Source: Akkermansiaceae bacterium
GTDB lineage: Bacteria; Verrucomicrobiota; Verrucomicrobiia; Verrucomicrobiales; Akkermansiaceae
Direction: 5' to 3'
DNA: 64,000 nt
Assembly (NCBI GenBank): GCA_029253285.1
Contig: JAQWZU010000206.1
Coordinates: 1-64,000 of the forward strand
Shown: piece by piece, positions 17,602 to 18,654 of the stretch
How positions within the stretch are numbered: position 1 is the first letter of the stretch
Layout: each line of letters begins with the position of its first letter
The notes under the pieces: generated by a model
Told to the model about the DNA's origin: nothing
What the model saw: the letters and a program-made list of their open reading frames with translations, nothing else
Databases searched by the model: none
Program-made: the position numbers and the translations under genes

Positions 17602-18654
17602 ATGAGTCGCGAAGATATCAAACGCCTGACAGAATTATCCTCCTGCGGAGGATGAGCCTCCAAGCTCGGCCAAGCCGAACTCACGCAGGTCCTGCGTGGC
17701 ATCACCAATATCTCCGACCCCAATCTCCTTATCGGTTCCGCCAGCTCGGACGACGCCGCCGTTTATAAAATTTCGGAAGATGTCGCGATTGTGCAAACCC
17801 TCGATTTCTTCACGCCGGTCGTCGATGACCCCTACCTCTTCGGACAAATCGCGGCCGCCAACTCCCTCTCCGACGTCTACGCCATGGGAGGCAAGCCGAT
17901 CACCGCGATGAACATCGTGGCCGTCCCCACCGATGAACTCTCACTCGACGTCATCAACCAAATCCTCCTCGGGGGAGCCGACAAGGTGGCCGAAGCTGAA
18001 TGCGCCCTCGCCGGTGGCCACACTGTGCTCAATCCCCAACCGCTCTACGGACTTTCCGTTACCGGCTTGGTCAACCCGCACCGCACCATCGCCAACACCG
18101 GCGGCAAACCCGGCGATCACCTCCTCCTCACCAAACCACTCGGCACCGGCATCATTTCCACCGCGATCCGCAAAGGTCTCGCCTCAGAAGAACTGGAAGC
18201 AAAAGTATCCAAGCAAATGGCCGAACTCAACACCCCCGGTTCCGCTCTGGCCACCGTGGGCATGACGCGCGCCGGTACCGATGTGACCGGCTTTGGGCTT
18301 CTCGGACACCTGAGCCACCTTTGCCGCGAATCCGGCGTGACCGCTCGCATTGATTCTTCGGCTGTTCCAGCCATCGATCCCGCTGTCATGAAATTCATCA
18401 CGGAAGGCCACGTCCCCGGTGGCAGCCGCAAGAACCTCGAACTCGCCAAGGAATTCACCACCTTCGCCGACGACGTTTCGGAAGAAACACAAATCCTCCT
18501 GGCCGATGCCCAAACTTCTGGTGGCCTCCTCCTCGCCGTCAAACCAGACGACCTTCACGACGCCCAGGAAATCCTCTTCGCCAACGGAGCCAATATCGTC
18601 GCCGAGATCGGTGTCCTGACCAGCCAGGATGAGAAGGCGGTCGTGGTGTCGTAA
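17602..18654 (+). CDS. selD: Selenide, water dikinase with selenocysteine at the active site
   Basis: 350 residues if TGA at 17653-17655 is read as selenocysteine (residue 18). The frame from ATG 17602 gives LTELSSCGG, Sec, ASKLGQAEL, which aligns with the GCGCK active-site stretch of SelD with Sec at the catalytic Cys position and Lys21 after it. Downstream are SSDDAAVY, TLDFFTPVVDDP, GQIAAANSLSDVYAMGG, LAGGHTV, GTDVTGFGLLGHL and DAQTSGGLLLAV, all standard for the AIRS-like fold. SelD makes selenophosphate from selenide and ATP, feeding selenocysteine and selenouridine synthesis. Gene finders that stop at TGA will start it late, at 17791. No other sel gene is in the window. Confidence 0.93.
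17682..17698 (+). promoter_or_regulatory. Candidate bacterial SECIS hairpin in selD
   Basis: CACGCAG (17682-17688) pairs perfectly with CTGCGTG (17692-17698) around a three-base loop, GTC. The loop begins 33 nt after the TGA and its first base is G, consistent with the loose rules for SelB-recognised hairpins. A shorter 5-bp hairpin (TCGGC/GCCGA, 17666-17678) lies nearer and could be part of the same fold. Not folded computationally. Confidence 0.5.

Follow-up and report, generated by a model that had tools for sequence, protein, structure and literature searches.

A selenoprotein-type selD gene with a covarying candidate SECIS hairpin in an Akkermansiaceae genome

SelD proteins containing selenocysteine (Sec) form an established selenoprotein family (PMC4561486; PMC1794560). 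The bacterial representatives from Pasteurellales, clostridia and delta-proteobacteria share an in-frame UGA at the catalytic position, a SECIS-like hairpin lying directly downstream within the coding region and the presence of selA, selB and tRNA-Sec in the genome. The selD gene analyzed here follows this known arrangement, being solidly supported and ordinary in kind, but differs from these bacterial Sec-SelDs in its active-site motif CGGUASK, which has the form CxxU and carries Ser in place of the Cys found two residues after Sec. The Cys-type SelD of E. coli (3u0o) belongs to the same enzyme family over its full length and retains the equivalent Lys20, whereas it has Cys17 and Cys19, where our sequence has the predicted Sec18 and Ser20, and lacks a SECIS-like stem. 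Verrucomicrobia are not named in the main text of the selenium surveys and tRNA-Sec literature searched, a silence with little bearing on priority.

The gene lies in the window (the whole stretch of 64,000 nucleotides analyzed) at positions 17602-18654 of the forward strand. Translation from ATG 17602 gives a frame that is open, as the earlier note had claimed, except for a TGA at 17653-17655, the next stop being TAA at 18652-18654. Read through this TGA, the product is a full-length SelD of 350 residues, which matches TIGR00476 over model positions 1-310 of 311 (379.8 bits vs. a cut-off of 125) and PRK00943 with 353 bits, and which has the solved SelD structures 3u0o and 2yye among its homologues. 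The alignment with 3u0o extends over residues 4-331 and bears out the former placing of the TGA (forward strand) at the catalytic Cys, followed by Ala-Ser-Lys. In the N-terminus MSREDIKRLTELSSCGGUASKLGQAEL..., which is kept in relatives, U18 of the segment SSCGGUASK aligns with E. coli Cys17 and K21 with Lys20, the two residues that we take to be essential for catalysis in the E. coli enzyme. Lys occupies the K21 position in all 128 SelDs compared, and a TGA at the same codon place is found also in the selD of many other phyla. The product is predicted to synthesize selenophosphate, and the UGA at 17653-17655 is almost certainly read as selenocysteine. A plain ORF caller, by contrast with the full-length frame, starts at GTG 17791 and returns 287 amino acids, so that the first 63 residues are indeed lost, as had been anticipated.

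Downstream of the TGA we found a candidate bacterial SECIS hairpin at 17681-17699 (forward strand), with the sequence TCACGCAG-GTC-CTGCGTGG. Its 8-bp stem comprises seven Watson-Crick pairs, joining 17682-17688 with 17692-17698, plus an outer U-G pair, and encloses the loop GUC at 17689-17691. The 7-bp hairpin with G-starting loop of the earlier note is thus real, but the 33 nt given there as its distance corresponds to the interval between TGA and loop; the 7-bp stem itself starts 26 nt after the TGA. With the loop GUC, a stem of 8 bp, a distance of 33 nt and a 50-nt fold of -18.4 kcal/mol, the hairpin stays inside each of the four limits that are quoted for the bacterial SECIS model in PMC13188914. 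When synonymous codons were resampled, a stem of at least 7 pairs arose at the same position in 0.8% of trials, and in 4% if any position of the permitted range was counted. The fold energy of the single sequence is only mildly unusual with respect to shuffles (z about -1.5 to -2.2). Because energy alone is weak, it is conservation and covariation that carry weight for the hairpin.

Across 39 distinct Akkermansiaceae sequences, 97% of the stem cells are paired, in comparison with at most 92% in shuffles and 18-59% when the partners are slid. In the closing pair, the third position of a Gln codon is matched with the first position of a Leu codon. Either base can vary with no effect on the protein, yet the two vary in step: the combinations observed in the family are CAA-TTG in 25 cases, CAG-CTG in 9 and the other two in 4 (p 1e-5). 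Other phyla show the same pattern, the concordant combinations numbering 10 and 23 vs. 6 discordant (p 4e-5); since these p values ignore relatedness, they are indicative, and the recurrence of the pattern outside the family makes the stronger case. Another stem pair follows a change of amino acid, as seen in ACG-CGT, GCG-CGC and TCG-CGA. No such stem exists in Cys-type SelDs, where 24 sequences show 0-3 pairs at the corresponding place. As read from these alignments, the covariation is a mark of selection on RNA structure, as a SECIS requires, and the segment 17681-17699 may well be the element recognized by SelB. Between the UGA and this element, single-sequence folding also yields a weaker hairpin at 17660-17679 (forward strand; TCGGC-CAA-GCCGA). 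It is probably not the SECIS, for its loop does not start with G, and genera with a selD encoding LDPxSL there do not conserve the region.

The host genome is that of an Akkermansiaceae-type Verrucomicrobiota (4.3 Mb in 224 contigs, 97% complete), the nearest named relative by SelD being an Akkermansiaceae MAG with 81% identity. The earlier note had implied that such a host would possess selA, selB and tRNA-Sec, and all three were found in the same genome: selA with 491 bits, selB as a protein of 647 aa matched over the full length of its model (292 bits), and a tRNA-Sec recognized both by ARAGORN (anticodon TCA) and by Rfam (54 bits, gathering score 47). Together with selD they lie on four different contigs. 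The genome also has mnmH and contains no second selD. The claim that selD is a selenoprotein gene is therefore supported by the decoding genes, by a TGA conserved in 64 genomes and by the covarying hairpin; the co-occurrence of TGA-selD with selA in the family and the further host genes with TGA at redox positions, FdhA among them, also speak in its favor. We hold with very high confidence the complete scheme in which SelB and the hairpin decode the UGA to yield a SelD with Sec18.

Among the alternatives to this scheme, the one that survives best, though very unlikely, is that the cell makes a short SelD from GTG 17791, or that the UGA is read through with another residue such as Cys or Trp. 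A GTG start does exist at 17791, and low-level read-through might occur beside selenocysteine insertion; yet relatives conserve the first 63 residues, in which the catalytic position and Lys21 lie, the hairpin covaries at synonymous positions and the selenocysteine pathway in the genome is complete. Still less credible is that an ancestral Cys codon has been turned into TGA by a sequencing or assembly error, or by recent loss in a decaying pseudogene. The window does belong to a draft assembly of 224 contigs, but exactly one TGA interrupts selD in 64 of 260 Akkermansiaceae genomes, which were assembled independently and show it at the same codon in every case examined, so that a sequencing error is not the explanation. 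Moreover, the frame is otherwise intact and conserved, the genome has no other selD, and those relatives whose SelD is of this kind carry TGA rather than the sense codon that had been named as the finding that would speak for an error. Reassignment of UGA to an ordinary amino acid (e.g., Trp or Gly) has nothing but the open frame in its favor and can be set aside as exceedingly improbable, given that TGA is the stop of 11 of 35 long ORFs chosen mechanically in the window, that SelD has no further in-frame TGA, that the genome encodes a tRNA with the selenocysteine fold and a TCA anticodon and that the SelD position requires Cys or Sec.

Returning to selenocysteine insertion, the gene content suggests the following scheme. 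SelB, charged tRNA-Sec and the hairpin at 17681-17699 would decode the UGA at 17653-17655 as selenocysteine, giving a SelD of 350 residues with Sec18 in its mobile active-site loop. This enzyme would convert selenide and ATP to selenophosphate, which SelA would use to form the Sec-tRNA-Sec on which SelD and the other selenoproteins alike depend, while MnmH would use it to introduce selenouridine in tRNA. In this way selenophosphate would reach MnmH as well as SelA, the latter serving at least nine selenoproteins, SelD among them. Because the gene is the genome's only selD, we infer that selenophosphate synthesis would depend on Sec, and SelD on its own product.

Family searches, which set a lower bound on the selenoproteome, revealed at least eight other likely selenoproteins in the host genome, each encoded by a gene whose TGA falls at a redox-active site. 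These are FdhA, a SelW-like protein and six proteins of AhpC/TSA or thioredoxin-like type (loci L135, L177, L161-L164, L168 and L173, at C58:84284-86302, C11:52505-52693, C53:33204, C75:27335, C30:14821, C171:715, C147:5519 and C37:2133). In view of these genes, the possibility that SelD is the only selenoprotein of the host was set aside. FdhA is a Sec-type formate dehydrogenase with the motif NCSRAUHAPTVAG, the SelW-like protein has CAQU, and the motifs of the other six are GGUT, FWUA, WUGPC (twice), GUGPC and WUPPC. The SECIS region of FdhA contains a 7-bp stem with G-starting loop, its single-sequence folding giving z +1.4. The thioredoxin-like L168 (C147:5519-5866; SWUPPC) has a stem of just 3 bp within the usual range of a SECIS, and either its SECIS is unusual or its TGA is due to chance. 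The host looks rich in selenoproteins, and most of its other TGA genes are kept with TGA in the genus. Scanning of the 64-kb window for TGA-interrupted frames followed by a SECIS-like hairpin retrieved selD and six further candidates, which look like chance occurrences.

Residues 15-20 of SelD (CGGUAS; window 17644-17661) place a Cys three positions before Sec. This CxxU arrangement is present in 41 of 42 Akkermansiaceae Sec-SelDs, none of which has the Cys two residues after Sec that corresponds to the E. coli pattern, and CxxU and UxC exclude each other, never occurring together in 128 SelDs. In ocean data, about 5.6% of single-domain Sec-SelDs are reported to have CxxU (PMC2398784). That Cys15 acts as the resolving thiol is a guess. 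We consider possible, but rather less than probable, the broader idea that Akkermansiaceae able to decode Sec form a selenoprotein-rich lineage of Verrucomicrobiota that has been overlooked, and that their SelD replaces UxC with a Cys15-Sec18 pair working as a unit for redox chemistry or selenium handling.

Our survey of 260 genomes of the family found 67 with TGA in selD (64 full-length genes and three fragments) and seven with a stop-free, Cys-type selD. Of the 67, 61 carry selA, as do nine genomes with no recognized TGA-selD, and all seven Cys-type genomes lack it (Fisher p 3e-42 when relatedness is ignored). Exceptions are thus these nine, among which G192 retains no more of selD than its 3' part, and six of the reverse kind; we take them to be gaps in incomplete assemblies. 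The Cys-type SelDs (L021-L027; genera g6 and g8) come from the same family of organisms and belong to the same enzyme family, but they have the motif GAGCGCK and their genomes lack selA. An mnmH-like frame adjoins selD in all five Cys loci examined, one being confirmed by model. A tree of 127 SelDs clusters the Sec forms of Akkermansiaceae with one from Verrucomicrobiales and the Cys forms with a Burkholderia sequence, which suggests separate acquisition of the Cys-type gene rather than a change from Sec to Cys. The Cys-type SelD may stem from horizontal transfer. Two relatives of the same genus as the host, G239 and G241, possess TGA-selD, selA and a TGA-type SelW-like gene, and a family search found no TGA-type FdhA in either. 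Considering their SelW-like gene, other selenoproteins may keep the Sec trait in these genomes.

Selenoproteins can be handled by dedicated annotation pipelines, and the gene model that plain ORF callers cut short is now corrected for selD. Decoding of UGA, as judged from these genomes, is documented in Akkermansiaceae; Akkermansia muciniphila, by contrast, is predicted not to use selenium (PMC12341817). A single bacterial family thus appears split between members having the Sec trait with Sec-SelD and members that combine Cys-SelD with the lack of selA and, in the loci checked, with mnmH.
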